NCBI GenBank assembly: GCA_900320735.1
Contig: ONTJ01000030.1
Span: 1-45,350, forward strand
Length of the DNA stretch: 45,350 nt
Reading direction: 5' to 3'
DNA from: an uncultured Eubacteriales bacterium
Lineage (GTDB): Bacteria > Bacillota_I > Bacilli_A > RF39 > UBA660
This document shows, piece by piece, positions 8,209-28,102 of this stretch (position 1 is its first letter; the number at the start of each line of letters is the position of its first letter). Made by a program: the position numbers and the translations under genes. A model generated the notes under the pieces. That model was not told the DNA's origin, made no database searches, and saw only the letters and a program-made list of their open reading frames with translations.

Positions 8209-8988
8209 ATGAAAGAAAAAATGAAAACACAAAAGATACTAGTAGTAGATGATAACATAAGCTTAATTAACATGATAAGGCAGTACTCTAGTAGTAGCAA
8301 CAAAATGCAGGTAGTGTGTGAGGCACATGATGGGGTTGAGGGCGTAGAAGTGTTTTTAAAAAATAAAGATAATATAGATGTAGTTTTATTAGATTTAGTT
8401 ATGCCAAACAAAGATGGTCTATATTTTTTAGATGAAATAAAAAAGAAAAATATAAAAACTAATATAATAGTTATAACATCATTTAATTCAGATGAAGTAC
8501 TTAAAAAAGTTGCAAATTATGATGTAAAATATTTTTTACTTAAACCTTTTGATTTGAAAGATTTAGAAAAAAGAATTTTAGAAATAACTTGTGAAAACAA
8601 TTTAAATAAATTGGTAACTGCTAAAGAGCAAAATTTAAAAATATCAGTGACAAAATTACTTCATGAATTGGGTGTACCATCACATATAAAAGGATATCAA
8701 TATATAAGAGAAGGAATATTAATATTATATAATAATCCTGAAATTGTTGGTGGTATAACTAAAGAATTATATCCAGAAATAGCATCTAAATATGATACTT
8801 CAGTTTCGAGAGTAGAAAGAGCAATAAGACATGCGATTGAAGTAAGTTGGAATAGAGGAAATCTAGATCTTATGGAAGAAATATTTGGACATAGTGTAGA
8901 CTATGATAAAGCAAAACCTACAAATAGCGAATTTATAGTAACAGTTGCGGATAAACTAAAACTGGAACACAATGTATTAAGATTTTAA
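8209..8988 (+). CDS. spo0A: Sporulation master response regulator Spo0A
   Basis: This 259-residue protein has an N-terminal receiver domain and the very distinctive Spo0A C-terminal DNA-binding domain. The receiver has the acidic pair Asp14/Asp15, phosphoacceptor Asp62 in LLDLVMP, Thr90 and Lys112. The C-terminal half keeps the family signature: [43 protein letters not shown] and KPTNSEFI. Phosphorylated Spo0A commits cells to sporulation by binding Spo0A boxes, which occur upstream of this gene and of spoIIAA. AGGAG sits close to ATG 8209; ATG 8221 is an alternative start. TATAAT elements occur at 8148 and 8180 but neither has a good -35. The gene is monocistronic. Confidence 0.97.
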
Positions 8989-22085: not shown

Positions 22086-22093
22086 TTGTCGAA
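22086..22093 (+). promoter_or_regulatory. Spo0A box upstream of spoIIAA
   Basis: TTGTCGAA is an exact Spo0A box, 93 bases before the spoIIAA start in the divergent intergenic region. In B. subtilis the spoIIA operon is activated by phosphorylated Spo0A with sigma-H; I could not find a clear sigma-H promoter here. Confidence 0.65.
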
Positions 22094-22186
22094 AATAAAA
22101 GTGCTGATTAAAAAATATGACATGTTTTGTCTAATGTATTTTATTTAAAAATAATTGTGATTTAATATAAGATTAGGAGGCATAAT

Positions 22187-22501
22187 ATGATAGATTATAA
22201 TATTGAATTTACAAAAGGAGTATTATTTATTAGACTTTTTGGCACTCTAAGTAAACTTAATTGCAATGATATCGAATTTGATTTGGTTGAGATTATAAAA
22301 GATGGTGGAATTAAATACCTAGTTTTTAATATTGAAGATTTAAAAATCGATGGGGATGTTTCTTTATTTCATGACTGCTGTGAAATTGTAAAGGAAAATG
22401 GTGGAAGAATGCTTTTATGTACTAATAAAGATAATTATATAGATGATTTTGAATTAATTGATGATGAATTATCTGCATTTAAGGTGTTTAGCGTATGTTA
22501 G
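22187..22501 (+). CDS. spoIIAA: Anti-sigma-factor antagonist SpoIIAA-like STAS protein
   Basis: This 104-residue STAS-domain protein lies directly before a sigma-F-like gene and upstream of spoVA genes, as in the classic spoIIA-spoVA order. In B. subtilis, SpoIIAA binds the anti-sigma factor SpoIIAB and frees sigma-F; its Ser in DSSG is the phosphorylation switch. Here the matching region is NIEDLKIDGDVSLF (48-61): the core strand NIEDL is kept but DSSG is not, and an Asp lies where one alignment puts the Ser. GGR at 72-74 matches the later GGE. It overlaps the next gene by 7 bases. Identity rests on context plus fold pattern. Confidence 0.8.
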   Translation: MIDYNIEFTKGVLFIRLFGTLSKLNCNDIEFDLVEIIKDGGIKYLVFNIEDLKIDGDVSLFHDCCEIVKENGGRMLLCTNKDNYIDDFELIDDELSAFKVFSVC

Positions 22502-23118
22502 AAATTTCAAATGAAATGTATAATTTACTTTTAAAAAAAGTAAATTTCATCGCTTCAAAATACAGTGGTCATTATAATAAAGAAGATTTAATTCAAGCAG
22601 GTATGCTTGGAGTAGTTAAGGCAAGAGATAAATTTGATGAAAAATTGGGTGTTAAATTTTCTACTTTTTGTGAACTTTATATAAAAGGGGAAATATTAGA
22701 TTTTATTAGAAAAGATAAAAATATAAGAGTAAGCAGAGATTTTATAAAATTAAAAAAGAAGGTAGATTATGTTAATGAGAATAGTAAGAATAAATTATCT
22801 ATAGACCAATTATCTACTATTTTGAATGAAGATCAAAGCAAGATACTTGAGGTTCTTACTTTTGATCAAAATGTAAGTAGTATAGATGAAAAAGGATTGT
22901 CTATAGCAGAAAAAGAAAAGATTGATTTAATTGATTATATTTCTTTGAAAGATGCATTTAACGAATTAGACGATGAAGAGAAGAGATTAATTGAAGAAAG
23001 ATATTACTATGGTAAAACTCAAAGTGAGATTGCAAAAAATATGAATATATCACAAGTTAAGGTATATAGGTTAGAAAGAAAAATATTAGATAAATTGGGT
23101 AATAAATTAGCGTCATAG
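22495..23118 (+). CDS. sigF: Forespore-type sigma factor, SigF-like
   Basis: This 207-residue sigma-70-family protein is shorter than B. subtilis SigF (255). Region 2 is clear at about 31-82: EDLIQAGMLGVVKARDKFD, then VKFSTF, IKGEILDFIRKD and RVSRD. Region 4 is at about 156-203: ELDDEEKRLIEERYYYGKTQ, then SEIAKNMNISQVKVYRLERK. These match SigF/SigG rather than the housekeeping factor. The linker and region 3 are reduced. Translation is coupled to spoIIAA by overlap. No anti-sigma gene lies between them. It is followed by a terminator, which separates it from spoVAC. Confidence 0.9.
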   Translation: MLEISNEMYNLLLKKVNFIASKYSGHYNKEDLIQAGMLGVVKARDKFDEKLGVKFSTFCELYIKGEILDFIRKDKNIRVSRDFIKLKKKVDYVNENSKNKLSIDQLSTILNEDQSKILEVLTFDQNVSSIDEKGLSIAEKEKIDLIDYISLKDAFNELDDEEKRLIEERYYYGKTQSEIAKNMNISQVKVYRLERKILDKLGNKLAS

Positions 23119-23175: not shown

Positions 23176-23616
23176 ATGGAAAAAAGTAAATATGATGAAT
23201 TAATAAAAAAACATTCCCCTAAAGAAAATAAATTTAAAAATATGATAATTTCATTTATAGTAGGAGGATTAGTAGGGTTAATAGGCCAATGCCTTATAAC
23301 TTTTTATTCTAGTTTTAATGGTATCAGTAAAGATGAAGCAGCTAGCTTGATGATGGTGACAATAATATTTTTATCTTGTTTATTTACATCACTTGGTTTT
23401 TTTGATAATTGGGTATCAAAGTCGGGTGCAGGATTATTTGTTCCAATATCTGGGTTTGCACATGCTACCACATCTGCAGCACTTGAATATAAAAAAGAAG
23501 GTTATGTATTTGGAATTGGGTCAAATATATTTAAATTATCAGGCAGTGTAATACTATATGGTGTAATATCTGCATATGTATTTGGAATAATTAGGTTTGT
23601 GTTTTTTGGAGGGTAG
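23176..23616 (+). CDS. spoVAC: Stage V sporulation protein AC
   Basis: I start this at ATG 23176 (146 residues) with AAAGGTGAT upstream; the in-frame GTG at 23167 is part of that site. It is a membrane protein with SpoVAC features: a short polar N-terminus with HSPKENKFKN, then SFIVGGLVGLIGQCLI, FDNWVSKSGAGLFVPISGFA and AALEYKKEGYVFGIGSNIFKLSG. SpoVAC forms part of the spore inner-membrane channel that moves dipicolinic acid into the forespore and out at germination. It heads the spoVAC-AD-AE unit. Confidence 0.95.
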   Translation: MEKSKYDELIKKHSPKENKFKNMIISFIVGGLVGLIGQCLITFYSSFNGISKDEAASLMMVTIIFLSCLFTSLGFFDNWVSKSGAGLFVPISGFAHATTSAALEYKKEGYVFGIGSNIFKLSGSVILYGVISAYVFGIIRFVFFGG

Positions 23617-23619
23617 ATT

Positions 23620-24600
23620 ATGAATATAAAATTTAATAATGTATATGTTGAAGATGTTTCAACAGTAGCGGGACCTTTTGTTAAAAATGGACCATTTAAA
23701 TATGATAGTATATTTGAAGATTTTTATGATGGAGAAGATACATATGAAAAATGTGAAATAAAAGAACTTATTAAATCAATAAATATATTACTTAATAAAA
23801 CTAATAAGAAACAAGAAGATATATCGTTTGGTATATCTAGTGATTTAATGAATCAAATCACTATATCAAATTATGCATATTCAAAATTTGATATTCCATT
23901 TATGGGAATATACAATGCATGTGCATCACTTTGTGAAGAAATATTAATTGCAAGTAGTATGCTTGATAGAAGTAAAGATAAATGCGCGATATGTAGTATA
24001 TCATCACATAATATGACATCAGAAAGACAATATAGAAATCCTACTGAATATGGTTCACCAAAACCAAAAACTACAACTTTTACTACAACAGGTGCTGCAG
24101 CAATTATGCTTACTAATAAAAAAACAAATATAAAAGTACAAAGTGCAACTGTTGGTAAAGTAATTGATATGGGAATTAAAGATGTATTTGATATGGGAAG
24201 TGTAATGACTCCATCTGCTGCTTATACTTTAAATAAACATCTAAAAGATACCAATACAAAAGTAGAAGATTATGATCTTATTTTAACTGGAGATTTAGGA
24301 AAATATGGTAAAAAATTATTTATAGATTATGTGAAAGAAGAATATAAAATTAATTTAGGTGATAATTATGATGATTCAGCAACAATGATATATGATTACA
24401 GTAATAATGTGTATGCCGGTGGATCAGGTCCATCATGTCTTGCACTTGTAACTTATTCACACATAATACCAAAATTAAAAAACAAAGAGATAAAAAAAGT
24501 ATTATTAATTGCAACAGGTGCACTAATGAGTACTACTACAGTAAATCAAAAAATGAGTATACCAAGTGTATCGCATGCAATAGTTTTGGAGGCGATCTAA
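23620..24600 (+). CDS. spoVAD: Stage V sporulation protein AD
   Basis: This 326-residue protein (338 in B. subtilis) has a thiolase-like fold and in Bacillus binds dipicolinic acid. Family marks include STVAGPFVKNGPF, a central YNACASLCEEILIAS, SSHNMTSERQYRNPTEYG, TTTGAAAIM, DMGSVMTPSAAYTL and a late GGSGPSCLALV. It works with SpoVAC and SpoVAE in spore dipicolinate transport. GGAGGGTAG precedes the ATG, three bases after spoVAC. Its stop shares one base with the spoVAE start. Confidence 0.96.
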   Translation: MNIKFNNVYVEDVSTVAGPFVKNGPFKYDSIFEDFYDGEDTYEKCEIKELIKSINILLNKTNKKQEDISFGISSDLMNQITISNYAYSKFDIPFMGIYNACASLCEEILIASSMLDRSKDKCAICSISSHNMTSERQYRNPTEYGSPKPKTTTFTTTGAAAIMLTNKKTNIKVQSATVGKVIDMGIKDVFDMGSVMTPSAAYTLNKHLKDTNTKVEDYDLILTGDLGKYGKKLFIDYVKEEYKINLGDNYDDSATMIYDYSNNVYAGGSGPSCLALVTYSHIIPKLKNKEIKKVLLIATGALMSTTTVNQKMSIPSVSHAIVLEAI

Positions 24601-24950
24601 TGACATACTTATATGCATTCTTATTTGCGGGAATCGTATGCCTAATAGGGCAGATAATATTAGATAATACAAAATTAATGCCTGGTCATATCACTAGTTT
24701 ATTTGTAGTGATAGGTGCAGCGTTAGATATATTTTCAATATATGATTTTTTTGTAGAAAAGGCAGGTGCAGGTGCAATGGTATGCATTACTAGTTTTGGA
24801 CATTTACTAATACATGGAGCCCTTGCAAAAGCTAAATCAGCAGGTTTATTAGGATTATTTACAGGAATGTTTTCACTAACTGCAGCTGGTATAACTGCAA
24901 CTATAATATTCGCATTTATACTTACAATTATCTTCAAACCAAAAAACTAA
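24600..24950 (+). CDS. spoVAE: Stage V sporulation protein AE (SpoVAEb type)
   Basis: The 116-residue membrane protein starts at ATG 24600, which overlaps the spoVAD TAA by one base; GGAGGCGAT sits just upstream. Longer in-frame reading would lie inside spoVAD. Features of the SpoVAE/SpoVAC-related family are FLFAGIVCLIGQIIL, LMPGHITSLFVVIGA, YDFFVEKAGAGAMVCITSFG and HLLIHGALAKAKSAGLLG. It is the membrane partner of SpoVAC and SpoVAD in spore dipicolinate movement. The unit has no spoVAA, spoVAB or spoVAF in this window. Confidence 0.95.
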   Translation: MTYLYAFLFAGIVCLIGQIILDNTKLMPGHITSLFVVIGAALDIFSIYDFFVEKAGAGAMVCITSFGHLLIHGALAKAKSAGLLGLFTGMFSLTAAGITATIIFAFILTIIFKPKN

Positions 24951-25025: not shown

Positions 25026-25673
25026 ATGAATAGCGAAAAAGGTAAAAATATTTTATTAGGTGTATTGATAGTAGGTTTAGTAGCAATGACAGTTGCATAT
25101 GCAGCACTTTCTACAACATTAACTATTAATGGTTCGGTAACAGTACCAACAACTACATGGGATATACATTTTGCAAATGTTTCAGATGCAACTGGTACTA
25201 CAAATACACTTGGAGGAACTAATGAAGGTAGAGTAGTAGCTCTAGGAACTTTAGATAGTAACTCAAATAATACTACAGGAGTAACTTTCTCAGGATTAGA
25301 AATTTCACTAGCAAAACCTGGTGACTGGGCTCAAGTAAATTTTGATATCGTTAATGCAGGTACAATTGATGCTAAATTAGGAAGTTTTACAAAAACTATC
25401 CAAAAACAAGGTTTACAAACTGAAAGTAGTGAAGATACATATGATGGCATAACTTATACAGTTACTTGTGGTGCATCTAGAGATAGTGGTGTTAAACCTG
25501 TAGCATTAGCATCTGCACAAGAGTTAGTTAAATCAACTGGAACATTACAATGTAAATTATATGTTCATTATGACGAATTAACTAATAACCATGAAGCAGG
25601 TTCTGATCAAACATTAAACTCATCAGCAAAAATATTCAATCTAGCAGCTCAATGGCAATATATTCAAAAATAA
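25026..25673 (+). CDS. TasA/camelysin-like fibre protein with SipW-type signal peptide
   Basis: This 215-residue secreted protein has a signal segment (about residues 8-26) ending VAYA/ALSTTL, typical of SipW-processed proteins. The mature domain shows TWDIHFANVS, a conserved AKPGDWAQVNFDIVNAGTIDAKLGSF (about 96-121), and a C-terminus ending in QWQYIQK. These resemble TasA/CalY fibre proteins of Bacillota. Two Cys could form a disulfide. Two paralogues and a SipW-like peptidase follow, which strongly supports the call. AGGAGAAG is the ribosome binding site. It has its own promoter and terminator, so it may be the main subunit. Confidence 0.85.
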   Translation: MNSEKGKNILLGVLIVGLVAMTVAYAALSTTLTINGSVTVPTTTWDIHFANVSDATGTTNTLGGTNEGRVVALGTLDSNSNNTTGVTFSGLEISLAKPGDWAQVNFDIVNAGTIDAKLGSFTKTIQKQGLQTESSEDTYDGITYTVTCGASRDSGVKPVALASAQELVKSTGTLQCKLYVHYDELTNNHEAGSDQTLNSSAKIFNLAAQWQYIQK

Positions 25674-25677
25674 TACG

Positions 25678-25701
25678 ACACAGTGTAAACTGTGTTTTTT
25701 A
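25678..25701 (+). terminator. Intrinsic terminator
   Basis: ACACAGT (25678-25684) pairs with ACTGTGT (25689-25695) around GTAA, followed by T's. Confidence 0.93.
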
Positions 25702-25705
25702 TTCG

Positions 25706-25734
25706 TTGACTTTTTTGTTTATTTAATGTATATT
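25706..25734 (+). promoter_or_regulatory. Promoter for the second fibre protein gene
   Basis: TTGACT (25706-25711), 17 bases, TATATT (25729-25734), 25 bases before the ATG. Confidence 0.8.
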
Positions 25735-25759
25735 TGATATGAGATAGAAGGTGTGATAA

Positions 25760-26320
25760 ATGTCCAGTAATAAAAAAAATATATTTTTAGTAATACTTAT
25801 TATAGGCGTTTTATCGATGAGTATAGCATTTGCTGCGCTGTCTTCAAGACTTTCAATAAGTGGTAGTGTTGGAGTCTCTGAAACAACATGGGATATTCGT
25901 TTTCAAAATTTTTCATCATCATCTACACCACAGACTACTACACTTGGAGAAACCAATACTGGTGTTCTTAAATCAGTAACAACTAATGCTACTAAAATTA
26001 CAAATTTGAAAGTTGATTTAAAGAAACCTGGAGATATAGTAATATATACATTTGATATTAAAAATAATGGCTCAATTGATGCTAGACTATCAACATTTAC
26101 TCAGTCTATGACATGTGAAGTTGATAATTTGTGTGGGTATGCAGATTATTTGGTTGAATGTCGTGATAGCAATAATAAAGTAGTTGCTCTAGGTGATACG
26201 CTATCTAAAAATTCATCATATAGTTGTAGTGTGACAATTAAATATAATGATAGCTATAATACACTTGATGATGATGTTAATGCATCTTTGACTGCAGATT
26301 TTCAATTTGTTCAAAAATAG
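25760..26320 (+). CDS. Second TasA/camelysin-like fibre protein
   Basis: The 186-residue paralogue of the upstream protein has a signal segment ending IAFA/ALSSRL. The shared pattern runs TWDIRFQNFS, LKKPGDIVIYTFDIKNNGSIDARLSTF and C-terminal DFQFVQK. It carries four Cys in the mature part (MTCEV, NLCG, VECRD, YSCSV), more than the first protein, so two disulfides are possible. AAGGTG precedes the ATG. It has its own promoter and terminator, so its level could be set separately. It could be a minor subunit or cap, as inferred by analogy. Confidence 0.85.
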   Translation: MSSNKKNIFLVILIIGVLSMSIAFAALSSRLSISGSVGVSETTWDIRFQNFSSSSTPQTTTLGETNTGVLKSVTTNATKITNLKVDLKKPGDIVIYTFDIKNNGSIDARLSTFTQSMTCEVDNLCGYADYLVECRDSNNKVVALGDTLSKNSSYSCSVTIKYNDSYNTLDDDVNASLTADFQFVQK

Positions 26321-26341
26321 GCATATATTATATGCCTTTTT
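26319..26341 (+). terminator. Intrinsic terminator
   Basis: AGGCATAT (26319-26326) pairs with ATATGCCT (26330-26337) around ATT, followed by T's. The TAG stop is at the base of the stem. Confidence 0.93.
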
Positions 26342-26398
26342 ATTGACTTTGTATGTTTGGTATGTTAAAATTTTATTGTATGATAGGGGCGTCATAAT

Positions 26399-26956
26399 AT
26401 GGATAGTGTAAAACGTGATTACAAGGATATTTTGATTGTAATATTACTAATAGGTATACTAGCGATGACTATTGTATATGCTAATTTTACAAGGCGTCTT
26501 GATATTGTTTCCGCTGGAGAACTTAGAGCATCTGACTGGAATGTGCATTTTGAAAATTTAGTTAAATCGGATTCATCAACTGCTAGAGTATCTTCCCCTG
26601 CAGTTATATTAGATGGTAAAACAGTTATAAGTGGTTTAAATATAACACTTGAAAAACCAGGCGATTATATTAAGTATACATTTGATATATATAATGCAGG
26701 CAAAATGGATGCTAGATTAGATGGTTTTACACATAATAATCCAGAATGTGTACCAAGTTCTTATATATGTGATAATTTAATATATACGATTGAGTATACC
26801 GATGAAAGCACAATAAAACTGGGTGATATTTTGAAACCAGGTCAGAGAAGAAATGTAACACTTATTATCAAATTAAGTGAAAAAATTGATAGTATGCCTT
26901 TAGAAAAAGTAAGTATTTCAGATTTTAGTACGACATTCTATTATGTTCAAAAATAA
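26399..26956 (+). CDS. Third TasA/camelysin-like fibre protein
   Basis: The 185-residue third paralogue has a signal segment ending IVYA/NFTRRL, so the usual ALS after the cleavage site is replaced. Shared features are DWNVHFENL, LEKPGDYIKYTFDIYNAGKMDARLDGF and the end FYYVQK. Two Cys lie at NPEC and YICD. Unlike the other two it has no terminator after it; the signal peptidase gene starts 15 bases downstream. It may be a dedicated partner or initiator, like TapA in the B. subtilis operon; that analogy is inference. Confidence 0.83.
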   Translation: MDSVKRDYKDILIVILLIGILAMTIVYANFTRRLDIVSAGELRASDWNVHFENLVKSDSSTARVSSPAVILDGKTVISGLNITLEKPGDYIKYTFDIYNAGKMDARLDGFTHNNPECVPSSYICDNLIYTIEYTDESTIKLGDILKPGQRRNVTLIIKLSEKIDSMPLEKVSISDFSTTFYYVQK

Positions 26957-26971
26957 AAGAGGGAGATATGA

Positions 26972-28102
26972 ATGAAAACTAGCGTAAAAAAGTGTTTATG
27001 CATTGAAATATTTTTAGGACTTGTTTCAATAATTAATTTCATGTTTCCTAAATTATTCGATCATGAACTACATATTTTGTTTTTATTAGCAGCACTAGGT
27101 GCAATATTTATATTATTCGGTATAGATATTAAAAGGGATGCTAACGATAGAAAAATAATGAAAAATATACTTATCTATTTATTAGTATATTATTTAGTTA
27201 TATATTTATTTGGATTATATATTGGTTTTGCAAAAACAATATATAGTTTTACATTTACGAATTTTACTAAAAATATAATGCCGACATTTGTGACAATAGT
27301 ATTAATGGAATTTATAAGACATGAACTAATTAGTAAATCAAATAAAAATAAATTAGTTTTAGTTACTTCATGTATATTGTTTATAATATTTGAAATGAGT
27401 AAGAATTTTCCTGCTTATAATTTTGGAGTAAAAGATGAAATTTATAAATATGTTGGTTTAATAATAATTGCAAGTATAACAAAAAATATATTTATGACAA
27501 TAATGCATAGTAGGACTGATGTATATCCTGCAATTATGTATAGAACGATAGTTGAAGAATTAATATATGTGTGTGTTATTTTTCCGAATATTGGTCCTTA
27601 TCTTGAATCAATTGCATTAATAATATTACCAGTATTACTTTCAATAATGGTTATGGCTACTACAAAAAATCAGATTTTAAATAAGCCAAAAGACAAAAGG
27701 AAGGGTAATAAACTATATTTTGTAGTTGTTGTTATATTATTAATATTAGTTGGTCTAAACTCAGGATTTTTTAAATATCAAATAATGGTAATAGGTTCAA
27801 ATTCAATGCTTCCTTATATGGAAAAAGGTGATGTTGTATTAATAGATAAATTAAATGAGGATGCAAGATCATCATTAAACGAAGGTGATATATTAGCATT
27901 TAAATATGATAATAAGGTTATAACCCATAGAATTACTAAAAAGGTAATTAAGAATGAAAAAGCTTATTACACAACAAAGGGTGATAATAATAATCAAGAA
28001 GATAATACAGTAATTGCAGAAGCAAGTGTCGTAGGGAAGGTTTTAACAAGATTTAAATATTTAGGACTACCAAGTGTTTGGTTAAATGAATTATTTAATT
28101 AG
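26972..28102 (+). CDS. SipW-like ER-type signal peptidase I with a large N-terminal membrane module
   Basis: This protein is 376 residues. The last ~120 form an S26B (ER-type) signal peptidase: Ser278 in GSNSMLP, His319 in ITHRI in place of the usual bacterial Lys, and a GDN motif at 337-339 (TTKGDNN). In B. subtilis SipW, such an enzyme processes TasA and TapA. The first ~260 residues hold about seven extra membrane segments, whereas SipW itself is about 190 residues with two. The extra part contains a conserved-looking RTIVEELIYV but no domain I can name. GAGGGAG precedes the ATG. It follows the third fibre gene and precedes a DUF5305-like gene. Confidence 0.9.
   Translation: MKTSVKKCLCIEIFLGLVSIINFMFPKLFDHELHILFLLAALGAIFILFGIDIKRDANDRKIMKNILIYLLVYYLVIYLFGLYIGFAKTIYSFTFTNFTKNIMPTFVTIVLMEFIRHELISKSNKNKLVLVTSCILFIIFEMSKNFPAYNFGVKDEIYKYVGLIIIASITKNIFMTIMHSRTDVYPAIMYRTIVEELIYVCVIFPNIGPYLESIALIILPVLLSIMVMATTKNQILNKPKDKRKGNKLYFVVVVILLILVGLNSGFFKYQIMVIGSNSMLPYMEKGDVVLIDKLNEDARSSLNEGDILAFKYDNKVITHRITKKVIKNEKAYYTTKGDNNNQEDNTVIAEASVVGKVLTRFKYLGLPSVWLNELFN

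Follow-up and report, generated by a model that had tools for sequence, protein, structure and literature searches.

Organization of the spoIIA locus

The window, the whole 45,350-nucleotide stretch of DNA analyzed here, is one contig (C8) of a genome assembly of 797 kb in 37 contigs that is 72% complete (to be referred to as genome G000). It carries an operon in which a gene for a SpoIIAA-like protein is followed directly by sigF and then by spoVA genes. The features are as follows, all on the forward (+) strand.

8209–8988, +: spo0A, also on contig C8, whose product is expected to activate the operon (TIGR02875, 266 bits, cut-off 200; PF08769, E 1.2e-41)
22087–22093, +: distal Spo0A box, TGTCGAA (from the sequence)
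22128–22134, +: proximal Spo0A-like box, TGTCTAA, conserved in the genus (from alignments)
22160–22167, +: -10-like element ATTTAATA of the conserved operon promoter (its position matches the conserved TAWATT block)
22187–22501, +: spoIIAA-like open reading frame, a single-domain STAS protein of 104 aa that lacks the DSSG motif (PF01740, E 9.8e-5; TIGR02886, E 2e-4, below cut-off)
22349–22363, +: DGDVS loop, codons 55–59, in the place of DSSG in SpoIIAA and two residues shorter than in relatives (from alignments)
22495–23118, +: sigF, a SigF/SigG-family sporulation sigma factor of 207 aa that lacks the N-terminal extension before region 2 (TIGR02980, E 1e-34; TIGR02885, E 3.2e-34; both below cut-off)
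23176–23616, +: spoVAC (TIGR02838, E 3.7e-48)
23620–24600, +: spoVAD (PF07451, E 6.2e-107)
24600–24950, +: spoVAE (TIGR02839, E 6.5e-38, over part of a longer open reading frame)

The spoIIAA and sigF genes overlap by 7 bases (22495–22501), and no gene lies between them. The gene order, the overlap, and the lack of spoIIAB between the two genes had been described in a first-pass annotation of this DNA, with coordinates that proved exact. Genome G000 keeps spoIIR and SigF/SigG-family genes.

Directly after spoVAE, three related tandem proteins are encoded (25026–26956), which begin with a hydrophobic stretch and have a 'WDIHF/WDVHF' region in common. They are followed by an open reading frame (26972–28102) whose C-terminal part is signal-peptidase-like. 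No NCBIfam model matches the first of the three.

The relatives of the window among named genomes are uncultured Bacilli, Erysipelotrichaceae, Mollicutes and Tenericutes MAGs, and Candidatus Coprosoma intestinipullorum, which has been assigned to the GTDB order RF39 (PMC8035907). From this placement, and from a gene content that matches the one described in PMC10868615, we infer that the family of the window (to be referred to as family f1) belongs to RF39. It is a large family of uncultured gut bacteria, whose sporulation is predicted from their genes.

The STAS protein is SpoIIAA by descent

The STAS protein of the window is SpoIIAA by descent, even with a score of 21.3 bits against the curated SpoIIAA model TIGR02886, whose cut-off is 114.75. 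A profile built from 24 STAS proteins of family f1 finds Bacillus SpoIIAA in the Protein Data Bank (1tid, 1auz, 1th8) with E values of 4.7e-21 to 5.4e-21. The match is colinear over the full length, and TM1442 and RsbS rank behind. The AlphaFold2 model of the window protein has a pLDDT of 90.5 and a pTM of 0.82, and the closest folds found with Foldseek and VIA-align are SpoIIAA chains (for 1thn_B, Z 15.3 and rmsd 1.9 over 103 residues). The gene is located directly 5' of sigF, in the window as in 76 of 90 f1 loci (75 by script, and L096 by eye), often overlapping it, and in one further locus it is 1.5 kb away. What the protein lacks is the phosphorylatable Ser of the loop, and a cognate SpoIIAB kinase/anti-sigma factor and SpoIIE phosphatase were not found in the genome (see below).

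The downstream gene, next to spoVA, encodes a sigma factor of the SigB/F/G type. It matches the SigF model TIGR02885 (E 3.2e-34) ahead of SigG (E 9.4e-28), both below cut-off. Regulation by SpoIIAB, which is expected of SigF, is missing, with no SpoIIAB found in family f1.

The phosphorylation loop

The SpoIIAA-SpoIIAB-SpoIIE switch is the textbook mechanism for activation of the first forespore sigma factor. In the window protein the loop reads D55-G56-D57-V58-S59, with no DSSG motif. SpoIIAA proteins encoded next to SpoIIAB have a DS[ST]G loop in 41 of 41 cases, of which 27 of 27 are from the class, selected by a D-[ST]-[ST]-G pattern out of 31 SpoIIAB loci, and 14 of 14 are from the named relatives, selected by profile. 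In contrast, the phospho-position of the f1 proteins is Ser or Thr in only 5 of 75, and is otherwise most often Lys (21), Asn (9), Tyr (9), Glu (8) or Ala (7). The motif Asp (66 of 75) and Gly (60 of 75) are mostly kept. As Ser and Thr together account for 8.2% of the residues of f1 SpoIIAA, their frequency at the phospho-position is that of the background. Among the SpoIIAB-less proteins of named relatives, which partly overlap the 75 and were counted once, 1 of 17 has Ser. Fisher's test gives p = 3e-28 for the Ser/Thr contrast, a value that is indicative only, as the sets overlap.

In the window protein and the rest of its genus, the aligned loop is two residues shorter than in the relatives, whose loop aligns with that of SpoIIAA. 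The phosphorylatable Ser is either absent here or replaced by Gly56. A relocated phosphosite at Ser59 was considered and ruled out, since six other species of the genus have Thr, Met, Thr, Asp, Asn and Asn at this position. The first-pass annotation was right that DGDVS stands in the place of DSSG, and no Ser is retained at the site. Its further proposal, that the Ser has become Asp, depends on the placement of gaps. The family does not support it, because two loop residues are deleted and the position of Ser59 is varied.

SpoIIAB and SpoIIE in the family and the class

A search of 247 genomes of the class with the SpoIIAB model TIGR01925 gives matches over the cut-off in 48 genomes from nine families, and in none from family f1. 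SpoIIE (TIGR02865, E<1e-25) is found in the same families as SpoIIAB, and this class-wide search likewise finds none in f1. The weaker f1 matches to SpoIIAB were rejected, as almost all are located in long frames of histidine-kinase size. Among the 117 f1 genomes there is no small HATPase_c_2 anti-sigma kinase. PF13581 (E 1e-6) is found in only three of them, each time within an open frame of 622–626 aa that is a fusion, and PF07228 in two, both among these three. In genome G000, at its 72% completeness, TIGR01925 yields only weak, histidine-kinase-like matches, and PF13581 matches only one 626-aa PP2C-ATPase fusion and one histidine kinase. The first-pass annotation had allowed for a SpoIIAB gene elsewhere; none came to light in these searches.

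Outside the family, all 40 genomes of the class with a SpoIIAA match also have SpoIIAB. Within it, SigF/SigG-family genes are found in 105 of 117 genomes and spoIIR in 101 of 117, and most genomes have a separate gene of SigG length (about 262–273 aa).

The fusion of genome G000, on contig C23 (L045:72-3107), is a membrane protein of about 624–626 aa with a SpoIIE-type PP2C domain and an RsbW-like ATPase domain. Its neighbor is a STAS-APH kinase fusion with a Ser-Ser-Ala-Gly site. The two form a self-contained partner switch, present in 2 of 117 f1 genomes and perhaps horizontally acquired.

Remodeling of SpoIIAA and changes in sigma-F

The f1 SigF proteins lie on one side of a branch that separates them from SigF proteins of SpoIIAB-bearing genomes (SH-aLRT 96), as would be expected if the switch was lost only once, on the family stem. 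SpoIIAA itself is absent from 13 of the 90 f1 loci, a pattern that requires about 12 changes on a quickly built tree in which many forks are weak. In these 13 loci sigF is kept, so sigF persists without SpoIIAA.

Where SpoIIAA is kept, its reading frame is intact over saturating divergence, and the dN/dS of the least diverged pairs lies well under 1 (for example, 0.19/0.99, with dS near saturation). The conserved positions have moved. Residues E21, H25, F55, both loop Ser residues, G62, G66 and R67 are nearly invariant next to SpoIIAB (H25 less so) and are lost in f1. On the other hand, E8, K11, G12, G42 and F110 are newly conserved, and F15, C81, E106 and A109 are more strongly conserved than before. 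These numbers follow the B. subtilis sequence and run one above the usual ones. The low dN/dS and the shifted conservation show that SpoIIAA is not plainly decaying. We read the pattern of conservation as a protein that may have lost its SpoIIAB face and gained another face for some partner.

The sigma factor has changed as well. In f1 sigma-F the stretch before region 2 is missing, and K84, Y90, Y92 and Q129 in regions 2–3 have become conserved. Glu149, which we take to be the counterpart of Glu156 in sigma-G, is found in 20 of 26 SpoIIAB-bearing sequences and in 20 of 90 from f1. Sigma-G becomes refractory to SpoIIAB when Glu156 is changed to Lys (PMC3174212). After correction for 51 columns, lineages with and without SpoIIAA differ in no sigma-F column.

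Promoters of the operon and of its likely targets

The Spo0A box TGTCGAA is found upstream of 78 of 89 f1 operons, against a mean of 1.5 in shuffled sequences, and in 0 of 90 cases inside sigF. The boxes are often double, with GTATAA and TAWATT blocks at a fixed spacing downstream of them. Spo0A boxes are also located upstream of 15 of 27 SpoIIAB-bearing operons. Control of the operon by Spo0A is therefore ancestral, and taken alone it does not account for SpoIIAB becoming dispensable.

Upstream of spoIIR, a -35-like TG[AT]ATAA is present in 34 of 40 f1 sequences (7.6 expected), and TG[AT]ATA(A) is present upstream of sigG in 14 of 19 (3.6 expected). The full element, TG[AT]ATAA, about N16, and a CA[ACT]TAT-like block, resembles sigma-F/G promoters. 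As the pattern was first found by eye, its count is not an independent test. A regular expression for the sigma-F consensus of B. subtilis found no spoIIR promoters, and a motif sampler run on the leaders caught the Spo0A boxes and a leader hairpin rather than promoters.

This hairpin is found in leaders of spoIIR (L235–L274, L295–L333) and sigG (L275–L294). Its 3' arm covers the ribosome-binding site and its 5' arm is located between the -35 and -10 elements, which would allow it to form only in transcripts that read through. On spoIIR, f1 and some SpoIIAB-bearing families share it, with mean fold z values of about -3.4 and -2.4. A similar device is known for sigG of B. subtilis (PMC5942855). 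As an f1-specific substitute gate the spoIIR hairpin was rejected, given its presence in SpoIIAB-bearing families.

Comparison with known systems

The f1 operon is similar to spoIIA of B. subtilis (spoIIAA-spoIIAB-sigF) in the position of spoIIAA before sigF, the SpoIIAA-like STAS fold, the Spo0A boxes, spoIIR as a likely target, and the adjoining spoVA genes. It differs from that operon and SpoIIE in having no spoIIAB, no spoIIE, no phosphorylatable Ser, no canonical SpoIIAA surface, and no N-terminal extension on sigma-F. In other families of the class and in Clostridia (L001–L005, L046–L071, L152–L217), spoIIA operons encode SpoIIAA and SigF orthologous to those of f1, whereas their SpoIIAA adjoins SpoIIAB and has the DS[ST]G loop in all 41 cases. 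In a survey of sporulation genes, those of the switch are listed among the genes present in all spore-forming bacilli and clostridia (PMC3533761). SypA and RbaV, non-canonical STAS-only proteins, are active unphosphorylated, as f1 SpoIIAA would be; they retain the Ser and a cognate kinase or phosphatase, however, and f1 SpoIIAA has neither (PMC8256260).

For RF39, reduced presence or absence of spoIIAB and spoIIE has been reported, and sporulation with markedly different regulation predicted (PMC10868615, 2024). Those losses were published as gene presence and absence, and the passages on them do not address the SpoIIAA that is kept, the loss of its Ser, the shift in its conservation, or the promoter of the operon.

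Proposed regulation of sigma-F without SpoIIAB

The interpretation that we favor, and consider probable, is a single dismantling of the partner switch on the stem of family f1, with sigma-F activity now set mainly by Spo0A-driven synthesis and SpoIIAA serving another partner. Sigma-F would no longer be held by an anti-sigma kinase, and its activity would depend mainly on the amount made from the Spo0A-driven promoter. It would then turn on spoIIR and sigG from the sigma-F/G-type promoters, with no kinase anti-sigma gate. The retained SpoIIAA would be permanently unphosphorylated and bound to some other partner. Negative feedback on Spo0A is one candidate for its retained role. Such feedback by SpoIIAA has been reported in B. 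subtilis (Arabolaza 2003, as cited in PMC8256260), and would be a reason for retaining a SpoIIAA that cannot be phosphorylated. The restriction of sigma-F to the forespore is not accounted for by Spo0A-driven synthesis alone, and an unrelated anti-sigma protein could exist unseen.

A direct role of SpoIIAA on sigma-F is an unlikely alternative. Here SpoIIAA, one half of the old pair, would replace SpoIIAB as a phosphorylation-independent anti-sigma factor or chaperone. The tight coupling of the two genes, the constraint on a new set of residues in SpoIIAA, and the newly conserved K84, Y90, Y92 and Q129 of sigma-F speak for such a role. However, about 12 lineages have lost SpoIIAA and kept sigF, and none of the 51 sigma-F columns tracks the presence of SpoIIAA after correction. 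Moreover, no SpoIIAA is known to bind a sigma factor directly.

It is also rather unlikely that an unrelated anti-sigma protein has replaced SpoIIAB and is now bound by SpoIIAA. Forespore restriction requires some gate, and a SpoIIAA that is kept with a remodeled surface is expected if there is a new partner, but no conserved new gene is found in the operon. The sole recurrent upstream gene is present in 27 of 90 loci, and its longest product looks secreted and coiled-coil. A search for Gin/CsfB (PF10764) gave nothing convincing, although the control in B. subtilis failed as well.

The recurrent gene upstream of spoIIAA (for example, L104:2269-4155) encodes up to 628 aa with no Pfam match. The longest copy has an apparent signal peptide, a long coiled coil, and a C-terminal membrane segment. 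In the window the gene is absent upstream of spoIIAA.

That the operon is vestigial, with a family that no longer sporulates and a SpoIIAA in decay, appears improbable. The genomes are small, SpoIIAB and SpoIIE are lost, SpoIIAA is variable and repeatedly lost, and RF39 MAGs were given a 0% sporulation probability in one tool-based study (PMC12536801), in which all MAGs predicted to sporulate carry spoIIAB. Against decay stand the intact reading frames over saturating divergence, the low dN/dS (with dS near saturation), the newly conserved residues, and the retention of spoIIR, sigG and spoVA with conserved promoters; PMC10868615 also predicts sporulation in RF39.

A takeover of the SpoIIE and SpoIIAB roles in genome G000 by the PP2C-ATPase fusion of contig C23 is very improbable. 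It does combine a PP2C domain (PF07228, E 1.1e-47) with an RsbW-like one (PF13581), but both domains are found in only 2 of 117 f1 genomes, and the next gene encodes its own STAS partner with a Ser-Ser-Ala-Gly site. The window SpoIIAA has no Ser to be phosphorylated. The fusion was rejected as a substitute for its rarity and for having its own STAS partner. A SpoIIAA locked in a phosphomimetic state by a Ser-to-Asp change, as first proposed, is hardly credible even with Asp55 and Asp57 in the loop, since such a state has a purpose only when there is a SpoIIAB to stay clear of, two residues are missing from the loop, and the family has Lys, Asn, Tyr, Glu and Ala at the site.

The switch dismantled on the family stem remains our preferred reading. 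The earlier suggestion of a rewired or simplified forespore sigma control in this lineage stands in outline: the whole family lacks SpoIIAB, SpoIIE and the phosphorylatable Ser, and keeps sigF, spoIIR, spoVA and sigG. It does not stand as a peculiarity of this genome, nor with a phosphomimetic Asp. A more far-reaching proposal can be offered only tentatively, namely that the whole family may sporulate with no kinase-type anti-sigma factor on sigma-F, and that an unphosphorylated SpoIIAA with a new binding face may have been re-purposed to act on sigma-F or in the Spo0A feedback loop.

The absence of spoIIAB and spoIIE from RF39 has already been reported, whereas the remodeled SpoIIAA appears to be undescribed; no paper on SpoIIAA without SpoIIAB was found in the open-access literature. 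These observations are a warning for sporulation predictors that treat spoIIAB as seemingly universal (PMC12536801). They also raise the question of how sigma-F is restricted to one cell without SpoIIAB. With sigma-F, SpoIIR, SigG and SpoVA kept and the switch gone, either the switch is dispensable in this family or another gate exists.
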